43,862 bases of DNA from positions 1 to 43,862 of IMG/VR virus record IMGVR_UViG_3300038416_000197; one strand, given 5' to 3'. Below the pieces are notes generated by a model, which saw only the letters and a program-made list of their open reading frames with translations, was not told the DNA's origin and did no database searches. Made by a program: the position numbers and the translations under genes. How positions within the stretch are numbered: position 1 is the first letter of the stretch; each line of letters begins with the position of its first letter. The DNA is from a virus. Positions 7,903 through 39,270 of this stretch are shown here, one piece after another.

Positions 7903-8589
7903 ATGCGAAATCCATGGCTAGAACTTCCAAGACGAAGCCCTTACATTCTTCCACAAGATCGGAAAGCCATTTTAAGGTTGAACGGACGGGTTTCTGCAAA
8001 GAATAACGGACAAGGCAGAATCAACGTCAACTTGCTCCCTGAGCCGTTCATTGGAAACCCCAAAACGGCAAAGGTCGTCCTGCTGAATTTGAACCCCGGT
8101 GTTGGAGATGGCGACAGGCGAGCCCACAGAAATCCAGTGTTTCGAAAAGCGATCATCCGCAATCTTCGAAACGAGTCGCAGGAATACTTCTTTTATCCGT
8201 TAGACCCAAAGCTGGAAAAGACCCCCTGCGCCCAGTGGTGGCTGAAACACCTGCGAGAGCTTTTCCAAAAGGCTGGTTTGGATAGAAAAACAGTGGCTCG
8301 CCGACTCTGCGTAATTGAGTGGTTTCCGTATCACTCGCAAAAAGCTTACCTGCCAGAACGACAAATTTGCCCATCGCAGGAATATGCATTTAGATTGGCA
8401 TTAAAGGCACTCGAAACTAGAAAACTGGTGGTTGGAATGAGGGCTGAAAACCGTTGGATCGCAGTTGACTCTTGCCTTGACTCTTGCTTCAAGTCTGTGC
8501 CGTTTTTGAACAGCACCCAAAACTGTTGTATCAGCTCCGGTAATGCAGGGAAAATATTGTTCCAGCAAATCGTGGATGCACTTCGATGA
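7903..8589 (+). CDS. UDG-fold-like protein of unknown function
   Basis: 228 aa. The pattern PEPFIG then VVLLNLNPG (residues about 46-66), then VIEWFPYHS and a late VVGMR segment resembles uracil-DNA-glycosylase superfamily proteins of the uncharacterised kind, where NPG carries the active-site region. It is not a standard UDG family 1-6 member by eye. It starts at ATG 7903 with TGGAG upstream. Sitting in prophage cargo, it could act in base excision, nucleotide pools or defence; all of these are inference. Confidence 0.5.
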   Translation: MRNPWLELPRRSPYILPQDRKAILRLNGRVSAKNNGQGRINVNLLPEPFIGNPKTAKVVLLNLNPGVGDGDRRAHRNPVFRKAIIRNLRNESQEYFFYPLDPKLEKTPCAQWWLKHLRELFQKAGLDRKTVARRLCVIEWFPYHSQKAYLPERQICPSQEYAFRLALKALETRKLVVGMRAENRWIAVDSCLDSCFKSVPFLNSTQNCCISSGNAGKILFQQIVDALR

Positions 8590-26204: not shown

Positions 26205-26828
26205 CTATTTAGGCAGGTTGTGGCAGGCTCGGATGTCTTCTGGGGTTGGAATCTGAGTTAGGACCGTCCAACCTTGCTTGAGATAGTAGGACAACGGGTG
26301 CGGGTAAACATAAATATATTGCGGTATTACTGTTAATTTGATACCACGTCTCGCCAGAGTATCGCCAACGAATCTGTCTTCCGCCCAATCCCCGTTGTGC
26401 GGAGTCTCGGCTATGATGGTTGCCGCTTTACGGGATAACCAGTAGATGCCGCCGCTGGCGTAGTCGTGGGGATACTTCCCATGCTGGCAAGGCGGAATTT
26501 TCAAAATATTAGACCCACCGTTATTGGCGGGAATCAGAATTCCAGCATAGTCAAATGGTATAAGCTGGAAAAACGGAACACGGATATAAGTGTCGTCATC
26601 TATCTTGACCAGACGGTCGTAACCGTTATCAACCGCATACTGGCAAAGAGCCTTGGTTTTTAGCGGTAATGATGCATAATCGTCGGGTACGTTGAGTCGT
26701 TCCCCATCAAATATCTGCACGTCCCAACCAGCAGCAAGAGCCTCAGGCAGCCATGTATCTTGGATTGCCTTTACACGGTCGGTATTTTTCTTGCAGGAGA
26801 TTACGGCTAGAAGTGTTATAGGCTCCAT
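26205..26828 (-). CDS. GT31-like glycosyltransferase inserted in the head operon
   Basis: 207 aa. The N-terminus LLAVISCKKNTDRVKAIQDTW is typical of the beta-galactosyltransferase (GT31-like) fold. KIDDDTYIR at about 75-83 supplies the metal-binding DxD, and ASGGIYWLSRKAA with EDRFVG follow. It is a soluble GT-A enzyme without a membrane anchor. The setting between protease and capsid genes is unusual; it could decorate capsid or fibre protein, or act on modified DNA bases together with the TAGT protein at 31470. Acceptor unknown. Confidence 0.7.
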   Translation of the reverse strand: MEPITLLAVISCKKNTDRVKAIQDTWLPEALAAGWDVQIFDGERLNVPDDYASLPLKTKALCQYAVDNGYDRLVKIDDDTYIRVPFFQLIPFDYAGILIPANNGGSNILKIPPCQHGKYPHDYASGGIYWLSRKAATIIAETPHNGDWAEDRFVGDTLARRGIKLTVIPQYIYVYPHPLSYYLKQGWTVLTQIPTPEDIRACHNLPK

Positions 26829-29333: not shown

Positions 29334-31001
29334 TTACAGTTGAAACGGCTTGAACCATTTGGCTTTCAGCGGGGCAGCAAGAGCACGAGCGAGGGCGTTA
29401 AGCGTAGCGTCTACACCATCAATCTTGTTTTCCGGCTTATCTTTATCGAGTACGAGGTTGTCATGTTTGTCGTACTTTGCGACTACATTACTTACGCACC
29501 ACGTCATCACGGGATTAGCATCGTGATGCAATCGACCTGACATCACCAACGCCTCGAACTCCTTGGCTGGGTCGGATAGATGCTTCACTGCTTGCGGCAC
29601 TTGAACGGTTGCTATCTTCGTCTCGGCATGAAACTGTTGGCGAAGATACTCGGCTCCCCACTCGTCAAAGTCCAATTCCAGTACCTTGTATTTTTTGGCG
29701 TCATCTTTCAAATCGTCTTGAATCGTCGCATAGTCAATTACGTTTCCGGGGGTGGCTATCAGGTGCCCATCATGCACCCACTTTTGGTAATGCTGGCAGC
29801 TCGGGTCATTGGTGCGGTCGCTCGGCAGATAGAATCGAGGAAAAATATAGTAGTGAGCCTGCCCGTCTATTTCCTTCCGAAAGAGTTTCACAGCAGCCGC
29901 CATGTCGATCTTGGCTGCCAAATCCAGACCTATCCAGCAAACACAATCTTTGAAAGCGTCGGGAATAAGGGCAGCATCACCACAGGCGCTCCACTTGGGA
30001 AGCGACATCCAGCTAGATGACGCATTGCACCAAACGTTAAAGTGTCGGGTCAGGATGCGGTTACGCTTGCCTGAACTCTGCAAGGCAATCTGTTGCTGCG
30101 ACTTCAGGTAATCGAGGTCTACGGACACGCCCACATTGGGGTTGGCTTTGTAGATGGCTTTCTCGGTCGTCCAATCGTCGTCGTCGTCAAGCCCATATAT
30201 CAGCCCGAACAAGTTGTCCCGCTCAAATACCCCAGCGAGCATCTTGTCAACGTCATCGTGCATCATCTTGCATGGGCTGGCTATGTTGTCACCGGCAGTG
30301 GTAATCACTAATGCGAGCGGCTGCTGACGGGAACCCATGCCGGTTTGCTGCGCATCGTATAACTCATCGCTCGTCCATTGGTGCATTTCGTCCGCCACAA
30401 ATAGCGACGGGGCGCTACCCTCTTTGCCAACGCTGATAATGGGCAGCATACGGGAACCCGTTGATGGCACGATAAGGGATTGGGTCATTACTTCTATTCC
30501 GAATCTCCGCTGCAATGCCGTGAACTTTTCAACCATCTGCTTGGCTGGTCTGAAGACTTCGAACGACTGCTGTAGGTTGGTTGACCCGATGTAGACTTCC
30601 GCCCCGACTTCCCCGTCCGCTAACAAGAAATAAAGGCTGACACCGGCAGCCCAAAGGCTCTTACCGTCCTTGCGGGGTAGTTCAATGTAGGCGAATCGGA
30701 AACGACGGAAGCCAGTATCCCTATGCACCCACCCGAACAGAACCATGGTGTAGGCAGCCTGCCAAGGCTCCAATATGAACTTCTTACCGGCCCACTTACC
30801 TTTAACGTGGGGCAACAGTTCAAGAAACTGACAGACTCGCTCAGCCTTTACGGAGTCAAACTGGTAAAGGTAATTGGGGTCTTTGGATTTCTCCAAATCG
30901 TTTCTGTGGCGCTGGTAACACTGCTTGACATACTTACACGCCAATATAGAACCAGATAACACTTTGTCAATGTATTGATTTGCTGTATCTAAATAACCCA
31001 T
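29334..31001 (-). CDS. Terminase large subunit
   Basis: 555 aa. ATPase features: the FILEPWQ Q-motif near residue 78, the Walker A-like ELPRKDGKS near 110-118, and Walker B SLFVADEMH near 200. The nuclease half has CWIGLDLAAKIDMAA with the first acidic residue and LDFDEWGAEYLRQQ later. It packages DNA into proheads together with the P27-type small subunit; start and stop overlap its neighbours' signals (ATG at 31001 shares a base with the upstream stop). Confidence 0.92.
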   Translation of the reverse strand: MGYLDTANQYIDKVLSGSILACKYVKQCYQRHRNDLEKSKDPNYLYQFDSVKAERVCQFLELLPHVKGKWAGKKFILEPWQAAYTMVLFGWVHRDTGFRRFRFAYIELPRKDGKSLWAAGVSLYFLLADGEVGAEVYIGSTNLQQSFEVFRPAKQMVEKFTALQRRFGIEVMTQSLIVPSTGSRMLPIISVGKEGSAPSLFVADEMHQWTSDELYDAQQTGMGSRQQPLALVITTAGDNIASPCKMMHDDVDKMLAGVFERDNLFGLIYGLDDDDDWTTEKAIYKANPNVGVSVDLDYLKSQQQIALQSSGKRNRILTRHFNVWCNASSSWMSLPKWSACGDAALIPDAFKDCVCWIGLDLAAKIDMAAAVKLFRKEIDGQAHYYIFPRFYLPSDRTNDPSCQHYQKWVHDGHLIATPGNVIDYATIQDDLKDDAKKYKVLELDFDEWGAEYLRQQFHAETKIATVQVPQAVKHLSDPAKEFEALVMSGRLHHDANPVMTWCVSNVVAKYDKHDNLVLDKDKPENKIDGVDATLNALARALAAPLKAKWFKPFQL

Positions 31002-31480
31002 TACTGTGTTCTATGGCTCTCGGTCGGGATGGTATCCAGAAAAGCGAACTCGTCCTCTTCCTTGGGTTGGTGCGGCGCATTGACTTTGCTGCGGGCGGCA
31101 GGCGTCATGCCGAACTCAATTAAATACTTGCGTAGCTGGTCTAATGCAGTATTAGCAATCCCGACATAGGGATTCTGTACTGGATACCCTGACGGGGCCT
31201 TGACAACCATGCCATGCTTGGCAATACCTTGCTCTGCCGTAACCCAACGAGACCAGCATTGGCAATAGGCAGCGAATGCGGCACGATCTACCAACGTAAG
31301 CAGCCCACATGCCCGCAATTCGGCGGACATGCGTTTCCATTCGGCTCTGGCTTGTGCATCCAGATGGCGGGGACAAGTCGGCACCCCTGTCGGCTTCGGC
31401 TCGTTCAGGTTTAGCGGTCTATGTCCGGGGTTGCCAGCGAGCAGCTTTGCTGCGGTCGGCTTTGGGCGTCTACCTGCCAT
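31001..31480 (-). CDS. Terminase small subunit, P27 family
   Basis: 159 aa. MAGRRPKPTAAKLLAGNPGHRPLN is quoted only in part here: the RPKPTxxKxLxGNPG opening is diagnostic of P27. FAAYCQCWSRWVTAEQGI and NPYVGIANTALDQLRKYLIEFGMTPAARSK are the typical middle and end. It binds the packaging site. It overlaps the TAGT gene by 11 bases, so the glycosyltransferase and packaging genes share one transcript. Confidence 0.9.
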   Translation of the reverse strand: MAGRRPKPTAAKLLAGNPGHRPLNLNEPKPTGVPTCPRHLDAQARAEWKRMSAELRACGLLTLVDRAAFAAYCQCWSRWVTAEQGIAKHGMVVKAPSGYPVQNPYVGIANTALDQLRKYLIEFGMTPAARSKVNAPHQPKEEDEFAFLDTIPTESHRTQ

Positions 31481-32357
31481 TCTTTACCCTCTGAAGCTCC
31501 ATGCCACACTCGTTATCGCCGTCTGAGATGACGACATCGGGCTTGCGGATCAGCTTGTTCTTGCGGAATGATCGGTAATCAACGTAGTGATGGATGCGGT
31601 TAAACTTATGTACCATGGTTGTGTATTCTGGGTAGACATCCACCAACATTTGACTCTTTGGGCGAGTACCCTCGATGCTGTAAAAAACTTTGTTATTGCC
31701 ACCCTTAACTCTTTGCGTTCCGATTTTTTTCTGTAGGAATGCGTTAAACTCAACCGTGCACCAACCAGCCGTCAGCATATCTAACGAAAGGATGGTGTCT
31801 TCGTTGTACCTGCCACGCCAACGAAACGGCACGTCATTGCGGATGAGATTACAAGAGTAAATACGGGTATTGAAAATCAGCGGCAAAGTCTTGTACTTGC
31901 GGGGCACGAACATGTCATAATTCGGGCCTGCCATCGCCACATTCTCATAACGCAGGCAGAACTGTTCCATCGCTCTAAAGAAAGCACCAGACAGCACATC
32001 GTGTCGTAAGTTTCCATTTGCTCGGTAAAATGTATAGATGTTATCGTCCATCACCCAATGCCACGGATAGCCCATCTCGATTGACTTATCCCAAATGAAG
32101 TTACGAGCCGCACCCGGACCTACACTCTTGGTTAGCCCGAGGTCGTCTAGCGTCTCATAGCGATCTTTGTAGGACATATCAATGACGAGGATGTGTTTCT
32201 TAGGAACTACCGCTGCATACTGGTCATACTCCTGCGGCTCTACAACGGCATACCATCGCTCGATGCTCATGCGCTGCAATGCTTTGATCGTCATGCGGGA
32301 ATCGTAACGGCTAAGTGTCGGGATAAAGATCGGAAACTGCGGCTGCACGTTAGACAT
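31470..32357 (-). CDS. TET-associated-type glycosyltransferase (TAGT)
   Basis: 295 aa; the start at 32357 overlaps the ParB-like gene by 8 bases. FPIFIPTLSRYDSRMTIKAL at residues 8-27, HWVMDDNIYTF near 100-110 and RGRYNEDTILSLDML near 190 match the TAGT family. The MDDN supplies the metal-binding acid pair of a GT-A fold. TAGT enzymes are known or proposed to glycosylate 5-hydroxymethylpyrimidines in phage DNA after TET/JBP oxidation. No TET/JBP gene is seen in this prophage, so the substrate must come from elsewhere or differ. Confidence 0.78.
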   Translation of the reverse strand: MSNVQPQFPIFIPTLSRYDSRMTIKALQRMSIERWYAVVEPQEYDQYAAVVPKKHILVIDMSYKDRYETLDDLGLTKSVGPGAARNFIWDKSIEMGYPWHWVMDDNIYTFYRANGNLRHDVLSGAFFRAMEQFCLRYENVAMAGPNYDMFVPRKYKTLPLIFNTRIYSCNLIRNDVPFRWRGRYNEDTILSLDMLTAGWCTVEFNAFLQKKIGTQRVKGGNNKVFYSIEGTRPKSQMLVDVYPEYTTMVHKFNRIHHYVDYRSFRKNKLIRKPDVVISDGDNECGMELQRVKNGR

Positions 32358-32973
32358 ATTTCTTTGACGCCATGTCGGCATTTGGTACTCTTGGGTACCA
32401 GATAGACGGAGCCTTCGGCGGTATCTTCTGACCAATGGCTTTAGAAAACTGCTCCAAGTCTTCAAGCGTCTTGAAGTGAACGATCAATTTGCGAACACCC
32501 ATCTGGTCTTCGCTGCTATACTCCGGCATACCCTCGTATTCGGCATTCGGGTCATTCGCCGGGTCGTTGTCAGTTCCGATAGTGTCGTTCAGTTCTGCAT
32601 CAGTAAAAAATGGCTTCAGGTCAAGGTCGGCGGATAACTCGGCTAGCGTTGGACCATCCCATTCAAGCGATAGCTCACCAGTGCGGTTGTCTGCTATGGC
32701 TAGTTCTCGGGCTTTTGGGTCTGATAGGTCAAGGTCGGTTCTCTGCACGGCGACCAACTTGCTACCATCGGTCGGAACCACGATCACATCTTCCACGCCC
32801 GCCGCTTGGGCGTTCTCAACCGTCTTATTACCGGCGATGATAGTTCCGTTGCGGTCAAGCAGGATGCTCCGCCCCGCTCCGTACTTTTCGAGGCTGGTAC
32901 GGATAGCTTTATTGCCCCTTGTGTTACCTTTGTTAGCGTTTTTCGGGTCTGTTTGCAAATCAGTTATCTTCAT
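32350..32973 (-). CDS. ParB/Srx-like nuclease-fold protein coupled to TAGT
   Basis: 207 aa. ParB-like core signatures: RGNKAIRTSLEKYGAGRSI then DRNGTIIAGNKTVENA (residues about 18-57) and LAIADNRTGE near 90. The C-terminal part with LIVHFKTLEDLEQFSKAIGQ and SIWYP resembles the extension found in phage ParB proteins next to base-modification genes. Proteins of this kind are proposed to act as DNA-binding ATPase or nuclease partners for modification. The ATG follows the upstream stop directly. Confidence 0.75.
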   Translation of the reverse strand: MKITDLQTDPKNANKGNTRGNKAIRTSLEKYGAGRSILLDRNGTIIAGNKTVENAQAAGVEDVIVVPTDGSKLVAVQRTDLDLSDPKARELAIADNRTGELSLEWDGPTLAELSADLDLKPFFTDAELNDTIGTDNDPANDPNAEYEGMPEYSSEDQMGVRKLIVHFKTLEDLEQFSKAIGQKIPPKAPSIWYPRVPNADMASKKYV

Positions 32974-33298: not shown

Positions 33299-33556
33299 CT
33301 ACTGCTCGTCTTTCTTCTTACCGCCCAAAGCCGCTACAGCGTCAGCGATCTTAGTGGATATCTTGTTTACTCCGTACGGGGCTGCTATAAGCGTGGTGAT
33401 GTCACTCAGTGGCGGGACAGCATGATTAACGTGTACGAGGTGGGTAATCCAGTAGACAGCGGAAAGTGCGAATAAGGCGCTTAGGATACGAGCGGTGGAA
33501 CCCGTTCCATCGGCTTCGCTGAATATGCTCTTAACGAACTTCAAAAATTCGCTCAT
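33299..33556 (-). CDS. Holin-like membrane protein
   Basis: 85 aa. Two hydrophobic segments at about residues 23-43 and 51-63 flank a short polar loop, with a Lys-rich C-terminal end (GGKKKDEQ). Size, topology and the APYGVNKISTKI phrase resemble small phage holins. It overlaps the HNH gene by 4 bases. If a holin, lysis genes are split between here and the far end of the late operon. Confidence 0.55.
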   Translation of the reverse strand: MSEFLKFVKSIFSEADGTGSTARILSALFALSAVYWITHLVHVNHAVPPLSDITTLIAAPYGVNKISTKIADAVAALGGKKKDEQ

Positions 33557-33882
33557 TGATTGCTATTTTCCTTGCGGGTCTTTTCCTTGTGGCACGCCTC
33601 GCAAATCGATTGAAGGTTGGTCTCATCGTCAGTCCCGCCGTTCGCCTTCGGCTTGATATGATCGACATCCATCGCCGGGGTCGGTCGTCCATCCTTCAGG
33701 CATGGTTGACACAGGTATTTATCCCGCCGCAATACCCGCCTTCGAACCTTGATCCATGACCACCCGTAACCCCGAGCTGTCGTGTTCCGGCTATGCTGCT
33801 TTACATGGGCATCGCAGTAATCGGCGTCGGTTAAGACGAGGCACCCCGGATGATTGCAAGGCTTCTGGGCAGCTACGGGCAT
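33553..33882 (-). CDS. HNH endonuclease
   Basis: 109 aa. VDHIKPKANGGTDDETNLQSICEACHKEKT holds the HNH core (positions about 72-101): His-Asn-His with the two CxxC zinc clusters, CQPC at about 58 and CEAC near 94. An extra N-terminal zinc-like set (CNHPGC...CDAH) is present. HNH proteins near terminase genes assist packaging of HK97-type phages. A 77-nt structured element lies just upstream of the start. Confidence 0.85.
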   Translation of the reverse strand: MPVAAQKPCNHPGCLVLTDADYCDAHVKQHSRNTTARGYGWSWIKVRRRVLRRDKYLCQPCLKDGRPTPAMDVDHIKPKANGGTDDETNLQSICEACHKEKTRKENSNQ

Positions 33883-34079: not shown

Positions 34080-34562
34080 CTAAGCCACAGCGGCGAACAG
34101 TTTCATGTGAGAAAAGGCGGAATCCAGCAATCGTTTGGATTGGGTGCGGGTAATGCCCAGCAATTTAGCGATCTTTCGGTAATCGTGGGTCGGGCTCAAT
34201 CCGTCCAAGCCGAACCAGTACCGGATGGCTTCCCGCTGCTGTGGCGTCAGGCAGTCCAGCATCTCGTGGACGAGAATCAATGACTCATAGTCGGTATCCG
34301 TGCAGGCACACTCCTGCAACTCAACCAAGACTTTACGATGCCGGATCAACGACCGCAGAAAGTTCCTTGCGGCATTATTGATGATTGTCCGCAACGCCAA
34401 CTCGCACTCAAGCATGTAGGATTGTGCAGTATTGTTGGAAATTTTGACCAGCCGGAACAGAATCTCGGACTCTAGGTCGTCAGCCTCGGCATTGCTGAGT
34501 CGATACTTTGAACGAAATATGGAAACCACTGTGCGGACGATGGAGTCGTAATTATCCAGCAT
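34080..34562 (-). CDS. Sigma-like factor A (late-gene regulator candidate)
   Basis: 160 aa. Region-2-like helices (SNAEADDLESEILFRLVK at about 23-40 and AARNFLRSLIRHRK) are followed by a region-4-like helix-turn-helix, LTPQQREAIRYWFGLDG then YRKIAKLLGITRTQSKRLL. This is the layout of small ECF-like or phage sigma-related regulators. It overlaps the next sigma-like gene by 11 bases. It is well placed to switch on the late operon starting near 33.1-33.9 kb. Confidence 0.7.
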   Translation of the reverse strand: MLDNYDSIVRTVVSIFRSKYRLSNAEADDLESEILFRLVKISNNTAQSYMLECELALRTIINNAARNFLRSLIRHRKVLVELQECACTDTDYESLILVHEMLDCLTPQQREAIRYWFGLDGLSPTHDYRKIAKLLGITRTQSKRLLDSAFSHMKLFAAVA

Positions 34563-35214
34563 ATTTTACCAACTTAACGGACGGTTGGCGTCCGTTTTTA
34601 CGCCTTAGCGATAGACCACCAACAAACCGCTTGGCGGCTGTGCGTAAACCGTATGTGGCTGAATGGGTTTGGCTGGTGGTGTAACCGAGTGATGCACCGG
34701 CGTCCGTGATGTTCCCATCATGGTCTATCAGAGCCATCAAAAATGGCAGTAATCGTGGCTTTTCTTCGGCAACGGCATCACGGAATTGAGCGATATACGA
34801 TCTACCAACTAGATCGATGTAGTGAGGTCTCTCGAACCATTTGTTGTCTGAAAGCAACGTATACTTACTGTTGGTCAGTACATCTTGTTTCCTGCGGCTA
34901 ATCCACGAGATGTAGTAGTGGCGGCATAGCCCGAACAGCCACGCATACCAAATATGTGCCGTATTGTGACCGCCGCACCGGCTGGCGTCCCAAGTGGCGA
35001 TCCTGTCCGTAAAGCCATCATCTCGAAATGTCGAGTTCTCGGGTAGTGTCGCCAAATGCAGGAGCAAATCTTGCTCTAGGTCACGCACGTCGCTGTGGGT
35101 GTGATATTTGCGTAGTGTCCGGGCAGCAAACTTACGAATACATAAGGGGTCACGGTCGTAGAACTCTGCGAAGTTTCGGGGCGGTACAAATTCTGATTCA
35201 GTCACATTACCCAA
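34552..35214 (-). CDS. Sigma-like factor B
   Basis: 220 aa. SDVRDLEQDLLLHLATLP then TWDASRCGG and LFGLCRHYYISWISRRK match sigma region 2 (the 'yDpsra..fa.wl..iarN...d..Rrr' pattern) at about residues 40-120. ITDAGASLGYTTSQTHSATYGLRTAAKRF resembles a region-4 helix-turn-helix near 170-200. More divergent than factor A. It may work as a pair with it. It could alternatively be a non-sigma DNA-binding relative. Confidence 0.55.
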   Translation of the reverse strand: MGNVTESEFVPPRNFAEFYDRDPLCIRKFAARTLRKYHTHSDVRDLEQDLLLHLATLPENSTFRDDGFTDRIATWDASRCGGHNTAHIWYAWLFGLCRHYYISWISRRKQDVLTNSKYTLLSDNKWFERPHYIDLVGRSYIAQFRDAVAEEKPRLLPFLMALIDHDGNITDAGASLGYTTSQTHSATYGLRTAAKRFVGGLSLRRKNGRQPSVKLVKYAG

Positions 35215-38346: not shown

Positions 38347-39207
38347 CTATGCGGTGAGTGCTTCTGCCAGCGTCTCACCGAAGACTGTCGTCAGTTGCTT
38401 GCGGCGGATGTCGATGGCTTCTGACCAAGTGACAGGCGTTTCTTCGAATTTGACGATATCGAATGCACCGTGGCTGGCATTGCGCCATGCCCCGAGGCCG
38501 CTGAAGATACCGTATTCGAGCCACATCTTGATTTCTTCTCGCTTGAATTGACCGCCGCTACCTTTGCTGGAGAAGCCCTTTGGCAGAATGATGACATCGA
38601 ATGTCATCGTTGCACCGGGCTTGACGATTTCGCTGACGGCGATAGCGGTGCGGCTGACACCAGTGCGGGCGTCTTCGATGCGCAGCGGGCGGACGGACTC
38701 GCCTTCGGCGGCTGCGATTTGGCTGCCGTCACGCATGATGGCAATCTCTCTCGGCCCAACGAATAGCCACTTGTCAACACGGCTCTCGGGCTGGAACATG
38801 TTGCCGACCGCCTTTGCCGCCGCCTTGAAAAAACCCTTAAGTTGGAAATCGAGCATCACCAGCCCGCCTTTGTTGCGCCGAAAAACTGTCTTGCCTTTCG
38901 TCGTCTCGTCGCCGTTGCCGTTTGCGGCGAGCACGTCTTGCACCGACTGCGGCTGACCCTCAAGAGCGTCAGCATTGGCAGCACCGGGGAGCAACGTCAA
39001 CTCATGGTCAAGCAGCGCCTTGCGGATGATGTCTTTCTCTTCTTTACTGCGGGCTTTGTAGAGCGAGCTGTTGAGCGCTTCGCCGACGATGTAGTCGGAA
39101 TACAGGTCGGGGTCGTTGGGGCTGGTGCCGAGCATGTCTGAGACAGTCTTGATCGTGACGCTGTACTTCAGCACTTCGGTCTGCGTTGCTTCTGGTGTTT
39201 TCGCCAT
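38347..39207 (-). CDS. Cas7/RAMP-like phage protein of unknown function
   Basis: 286 aa. The start at 39207 (MAKTPEATQTEV) is set by GGAGG; an ATG nine codons upstream lacks one. RAMP-like features in order: a first strand YSVTIKTVSDMLG at 15-27, a QLKGFFKAAAKAV helix near 120-134 like the 'SLKGxxR' helix of Cas7, a DARTGVSRTA segment near 185 with EIVKPGATMTFDVIIL after it, as in Cas7 'DRxTGxA...EVVPxGTxFxF', and a C-terminal glycine-rich loop GLGAWRNASHGAF near 243-255. A divergent relative of this type occurs in other phages without annotation. No Cas1, Cas3, Cas6, Cas10 or effector nuclease is encoded nearby. Binding of RNA is inferred. Confidence 0.6.
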   Translation of the reverse strand: MAKTPEATQTEVLKYSVTIKTVSDMLGTSPNDPDLYSDYIVGEALNSSLYKARSKEEKDIIRKALLDHELTLLPGAANADALEGQPQSVQDVLAANGNGDETTKGKTVFRRNKGGLVMLDFQLKGFFKAAAKAVGNMFQPESRVDKWLFVGPREIAIMRDGSQIAAAEGESVRPLRIEDARTGVSRTAIAVSEIVKPGATMTFDVIILPKGFSSKGSGGQFKREEIKMWLEYGIFSGLGAWRNASHGAFDIVKFEETPVTWSEAIDIRRKQLTTVFGETLAEALTA

Positions 39208-39233
39208 AAATCCTCCGTTTTTGTTTTTGGGCA

Positions 39234-39270
39234 CTATTGGTATACAGGCGGTTTCGGACTTTTTTGGATT
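39234..39270 (-). promoter_or_regulatory. Conserved promoter-like element, copy 1
   Basis: The minus-strand element includes AAAGTCCGAAACCGCCTG then TATACC as the -10. It lies 27 bases upstream of the RAMP-like start codon, so it drives the RAMP-like gene and probably the array behind it. With copies 2 and 3 it shares the CCGCCTGTAT block exactly. Confidence 0.65.

Follow-up and report, generated by a model that had tools for sequence, protein, structure and literature searches.

A phage operon in which a ParB-like protein, a TET/JBP oxidase and a TET-associated glycosyltransferase (TAGT) are encoded together was reportedly described by Iyer et al. in 2013 as a system of TET-associated hypermodification. 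A family member with a characterised function is T6 ggt, which glucosylates glucosyl-hmC in DNA a second time (PMC13216743, PMC13390438); in our searches it scores 35.8 bits against PF20691, where the cut-off is 27.5. As a count, solitary TAGTs are already known, since they were found in 288 of the 753 phage genomes with these glycosyltransferases (PMC13216743). The Aeh1-like ones are entered under 'unknown base', and Aeh1 and 65 are assigned to a T4-like group that has a candidate modification gene but is not one of the groups credited with hmdCMP synthesis (PMC8056088). We found no paper that ties solitary TAGTs to ParB or to ModC, the protein module discussed below; the 2013 TET-association paper may describe the pair.

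We analysed a 43,862-base IMG/VR virus record, which we call the window and which holds nothing of the host genome beyond the flanks. RuvB is encoded near one of its ends and a tyrosine integrase is also present, so the window reads as a prophage with host flanks. We did not find att sites, as there is no direct repeat of at least 14 bases between the flanks. PADLOC reported no defence match for the left-flank genes, and a 295-aa protein near the integrase (38347-39234, minus strand) had no match in Pfam, PHROGs or PADLOC. The same is true of a 228-aa protein at 7903-8589 (plus strand), in which some motifs recall uracil-DNA-glycosylase-like folds by eye.

A TAGT gene coupled to a ParB-like gene

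The glycosyltransferase (P0001, 295 aa) is encoded at 31470..32357 on the minus strand. It matches PF20691 over the whole profile (1-205 of 205, 133.3 bits against a cut-off of 27.5, E=1.5e-38) and phrog_842 with E=1.6e-45, and proteins named TAGT are among its best viral-library matches, which confirms the earlier note in calling it TET-associated in type. We place it in a clade that we call TAGT-II. An alignment of 55 TAGT-II sequences has 46 invariant columns and a mean identity of 60% across very different phages, and the acidic motif D104-D105-N106 and R181..E186-D187 are among the invariant residues. The AlphaFold2 model is confident (pLDDT 93.4, pTM 0.91), and among solved structures it aligns best with GT-A enzymes (Z up to 14.3, rmsd 4.7, 223 residues), so the protein has an intact GT-A fold with the acidic metal/sugar-nucleotide motif. 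This fold is common to enzymes that act on proteins and on glycans. We believe that the protein is probably a sugar transferase on phage DNA.

Directly upstream, a ParB-like protein (P0002, 207 aa; phrog_620 E=2.3e-21, AlphaFold2 pLDDT 86.5) is encoded at 32350..32973 on the minus strand. Residues 1-139 (32557..32973, minus strand) form a ParB-N domain, supported by its closest relatives and by box counts, and residues from about 140 to 207 (32353..32556, minus strand) form the C-terminal module, ModC. The listed TAGT ORF reaches 32465 with a TTG start; the ATG at 32357 yields the 8-base stop/start overlap with the ParB-like gene that had been pointed out before, ATGTCTAA, at 32350..32357 (minus strand). 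Such coupling is the norm in relatives. In 86 of 90 relative loci, a set that includes near-identical ones, the ParB/ModC stop codon precedes the TAGT's first conserved proline codon by 5-61 nt, and an overlap of 1-20 nt is possible in 74 of the 90. Given this spacing, we judge that the overlap in the window is not chance.

On the other side, the TAGT stop is overlapped by 11 bases by the small terminase subunit gene (31001..31480, minus strand; PF05119 E=6e-30). The large subunit follows at 29334..31001 (minus strand) and is 100% identical to that of a near-identical relative (L002:9177-10844), which matches TerL_nuclease and TerL_ATPase. Upstream of the ParB-like gene is an HNH endonuclease (33553..33882, minus strand; PF01844), which keeps this place by synteny in the nearest relatives (L004, L007, L008 and L009). 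Further upstream, at 34080-35214 (minus strand), a sigma-70-like gene (region 4, phrog_351 E=6e-8) overlaps that of an unfamiliar partner; together they resemble a phage sigma factor that is split or paired, placed ahead of the late genes.

The N-terminal domain of the ParB-like protein has profile similarity to solved Spo0J/Noc/ParB N-domains (hmmsearch, E 4e-11 to 1e-8), which marks it as a ParB-type nucleotide-binding domain. Its box II reads GNKT, as against the commoner form GHxR, which is found in 42 relatives. The protein has neither a full C-box (GERR/GHxR type) nor an HTH and dimerisation domain, and ModC stands in place of the HTH/CTD. Because the GHxR signature is missing, we are unsure whether the domain binds nucleotide, and it may bind DNA without a nucleotide switch. 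Foldseek gave weak global scores with the AlphaFold2 model, probably because of flexible domains. The closest relatives in the phage collection are ParB-like proteins and the ParB domains of DNA methyltransferases; ParB-N fused to N4/N6 DNA methyltransferases in phages (PADLOC MTase_II) is 51% identical. From this pattern, ParB-N appears to be one DNA-related front end that is used with interchangeable modifying enzymes (methyltransferase, TET or TAGT-II).

ModC and the TAGT-II family

ModC is a conserved module of about 65 residues with the pattern W/Y..MPEY...VHF...F...Q...KxxxIWYP...Y, in which M149, P150, W192 and P194 are invariant. In the lytic phages Aeh1, POP12, PTm1, Kuja and Vibrio 1.076 and 1.124 the TAGTs are longer, and their N-terminal 90-125 residues or so match ModC by blastp and with a ModC profile (E 3e-15 to 2e-6). 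A tblastn search of 50,697 phage records with the window's ModC gave nine weak matches (E 0.5-3), and all nine stand directly before an Aeromonas-phage TAGT. Since the same module is the end of ParB in prophages and the start of TAGT in lytic phages, we take the two proteins to be tied by a gene-fusion link. Two results on ModC count against the DNA-glycosylation reading given below: the AlphaFold2 model shows no definite strand pairing for ModC by itself, and in a mirror-tree comparison the difference in support for ModC over ParB-N was not significant (the bootstrap interval spans zero). Vibrio phage Kuja (L101 3587-6275) has two adjacent TAGT-II proteins, each with its own N-terminal ModC.

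In total there are at least 585 TAGT relatives in the viral collection and 18 in one-per-species genomes, including Erwinia, Pantoea, Chryseobacterium, Rhodovulum, Desulfosporosinus and a planctomycete MAG. A ParB-like gene directly precedes the TAGT in nearly all relatives listed. In a closer survey the window protein was the seed and the 80 best viral loci were retained, so the rates are those of its nearer relatives. Of 56 non-redundant TAGT-II loci, 54 have enough upstream sequence, and ModC precedes or is fused to the TAGT in 54/54. In 45 of these, ParB-N plus ModC is immediately 5' of the TAGT; six have a ModC ORF before it with no ParB-N detected, one has a ModC-TAGT fusion, and in two (L024 and L057) the ParB-ModC gene is further upstream, as read by eye. 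In a tree, all 33 TAGT-II rows, the window included, fall on one side of a branch with 97/99 support, and TET-adjacent TAGTs and T6 ggt fall outside it; branches outside TAGT-II are long and the order of those rows is unsure. We conclude that ParB-ModC/TAGT-II is a separate and widespread cassette that is independent of a TET oxidase. ModC thus gives a sequence handle that sets apart a TET-free subfamily and predicts a protein partner, and it points to culturable phages and lysogens where the TAGT-II product is measurable.

Search for an enzyme that prepares the acceptor

No TET/JBP or methyltransferase had been recognised in this prophage, and our searches bear this out. The window has no match to TET (PF12851) or to the C5- and N4/N6-methyltransferase families (PF00145 and PF01555), no radical SAM gene was detected in it, and a profile built from 31 phage TETs found nothing in its six frames (best E=0.63). 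The earlier note had also proposed an HMM search for TET/JBP and thymidylate-hydroxymethylase; on the phage side neither was found in the window, where PF00303 (thymidylate-synthase-type hydroxymethylase) had no match, with T6 gp42 detected as a positive control.

We then counted the same families in the 29 viral records with TAGT-II (window included), many of which are fragments. TET was in 0/29 and PF00303 in 0/29 (T6 gp42 and host thymidylate synthases served as controls for the latter), PF00145 was in 4/29, PF01555 was above its cut-off in 3/29, and PF04055 was in 2/29 and also in L024 in the same run. Large lytic TAGT-II phages carry thymidylate synthases, and PTm1 shows an extra weak match to PF00303. 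From these counts, we take the missing TET to be a trait of the family and not a peculiarity of the window phage.

Our positive control for TET was a Winogradskyella MAG contig (L098/L106), where PF12851 matches with E=3.6e-24. With this TET as query we found 38 viral TET loci, a sample of one group. Their genes overlap and run from ParB to TET and then to TAGT, a 246-aa protein or an amidotransferase-like protein. A ParB-N domain is present in 35/38 of them and ModC in 0/38.

These results bear on the classical explanation, in which the TAGT glycosylates 5-hydroxymethylpyrimidine that comes from a host enzyme or from a divergent oxidase of the phage. The family name and membership of PF20691 speak for it, as does L098, where the TET gene is 0.8 kb from a TAGT-II gene. 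However, that TET gene overlaps a second, different TAGT (short, 256 aa), and the window-type TAGT with its fused ModC is convergent to it. The profile that detects this TET finds none in the 29 viral records or in the genomes of 13 other relatives, and there is no TET-like match in the six frames of the window. For an oxidase hidden among the window's unknown genes, the TET profile, PF12851 and a scan for HxD...H...R gave nothing convincing as a 2OG-oxygenase signature; the scan found one HSD motif in the unknown 34552-35214 protein. The suggestion of a hidden divergent oxidase does not hold up well, in a clade that itself lacks TET in 29/29 viral records, and we consider the classical explanation quite improbable here. 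We rate a hidden oxidase or a host supply of the hydroxymethyl base below a different acceptor chemistry, because the clade is without TET in 29/29 records and without hydroxymethylase in 29/29, and has a C5-methyltransferase in only 4/29.

Other enzymes occupy slots around the pair in some relatives. In L024 a radical SAM gene (1801-2733; PF04055 E=8e-14) sits between ParB-ModC and TAGT with 4-base overlaps on both sides, which is the slot held by TET in TET operons. A radical SAM gene is directly after the TAGT in L097 and upstream in L062, and an N4/N6 methyltransferase is between TAGT and the small terminase in the close relatives L007 and L009. The window has neither in these slots. In two Erwinia/Pantoea-type prophages (L026 5728-7174 and L023 8534-9262) we saw DUF115-like, GT9-like and SAM-methyltransferase-like proteins upstream of ParB-TAGT, families judged by eye, and these are possibly part of a longer modification path.

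The probable target and comparison with known systems

In up to 34 of the 36 loci with a long downstream ORF, the TAGT-II cassette is found shortly before the large terminase gene. The ORF nearest the TAGT matches four large-terminase ATPase families (15+9+6+4 matches, which may overlap per member, hence 'up to'). With one cassette beside four terminase types, different packaging modules follow the same cassette.

We give a probability of roughly 60% to the pair being a late, packaging-linked cassette for glycosylation of phage DNA. From homology, ParB-N would bind or clamp phage DNA; the fusions and the gene coupling suggest that the ModC segment docks TAGT-II; and, from its family and position, TAGT-II would move a sugar from a nucleotide sugar onto the DNA just before packaging. 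The sugar would most likely protect incoming genomes from restriction. We favour DNA as the target because of the precedent of T6 ggt, the use of related ParB-N domains with DNA methyltransferases and in TET operons, and the place beside the terminase. Thus the part of the earlier note that stands is that the ParB-TAGT pair most probably modifies phage DNA, and the part that does not is its description as a TET-type pair with the oxidase missing, as the TAGT belongs to the TAGT-II clade and the ParB-like protein carries ModC.

The same position beside terminase and head genes could be read differently, with TAGT-II glycosylating a virion or packaging protein (capsid, terminase or portal) and ParB-N serving as a scaffold. 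The GT-A matches include protein O-GalNAc-transferases, and the window has a second glycosyltransferase between its protease and capsid genes. However, the partner domain is the companion of DNA methyltransferases and TET, DNA is the substrate of the one family member that has been characterised, and most TAGT-II loci have no counterpart of the capsid-side gene. From locus to locus the terminases and heads are very different, yet TAGT identity holds at about 60%, which makes it difficult to picture a protein target common to all. We regard a protein target as unlikely. An action on host or surface glycans, or on tRNA or other RNA, with no role in DNA, we regard as very unlikely: GT-A enzymes are versatile and some phage glycosyltransferases modify host O-antigen (PMC7326821), but we saw no polysaccharide gene cluster in the window, and the overlaps with the ParB and terminase genes indicate co-expression with packaging.

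The second glycosyltransferase (26205-26828, minus strand; PF01762 Galactosyl_T, E=4e-8) is flanked by the genes for the head protease and the major capsid protein. Its identity to the L002 and L005 counterparts is about 90%, against 96-100% for nearly all neighbouring structural genes, and from this difference it appears to be faster-evolving or exchanged. We dropped it as a candidate partner of the TAGT, as it is not conserved in most TAGT-II loci.

Besides the missing GHxR signature and the widely shared GT-A fold, two points count against the DNA-glycosylation cassette: the window encodes no enzyme known to put an acceptor hydroxyl on a base, and for no TAGT-II phage did we find virion DNA recorded as modified. 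A TET product is improbable as the acceptor, which may be an ordinary base or one that an enzyme not recognised by us has altered. More specifically, and only tentatively, TAGT-II might glycosylate DNA with no hydroxymethylpyrimidine at all, either on an unmodified base or on a group whose maker is ParB-N or an enzyme sharing the slot, for instance the L024 radical SAM protein. If so, sugar-bearing DNA would be reached by a new path in many temperate phages, spread over several bacterial phyla, and a new DNA-modification chemistry would await discovery.

Compared with the ParB-TET/JBP-TAGT operon, the window shares the ParB-N front gene, the overlapping ORFs (8 bases to the next gene) and a PF20691 glycosyltransferase. 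It differs in having no TET between ParB and TAGT, a TAGT in the separate TAGT-II clade instead of the TET-adjacent branches, and a ParB with ModC. The ggt of T2/T6 (gentiobiosyl-hmC) shares the PF20691 family and GT-A fold and acts in phage DNA hypermodification (PMC13216743), but it has no ParB or ModC. In T6, hmC is made by gp42 beside ggt, whereas a phage dCMP hydroxymethylase of the thymidylate synthase fold, as in the T-even hmC pathway, was not detected in the window with PF00303. The solitary TAGTs of Aeh1-like T4-type phages are like the window in belonging to TAGT-II, having ModC and lacking TET, but their ModC is fused to the TAGT, they have no ParB-N, and in the records read they are not beside a terminase. 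The phage ParB-N4/N6 DNA methyltransferases have a closely related ParB-N (51% identity) and carry a methyltransferase where the window instead has ModC and a glycosyltransferase.
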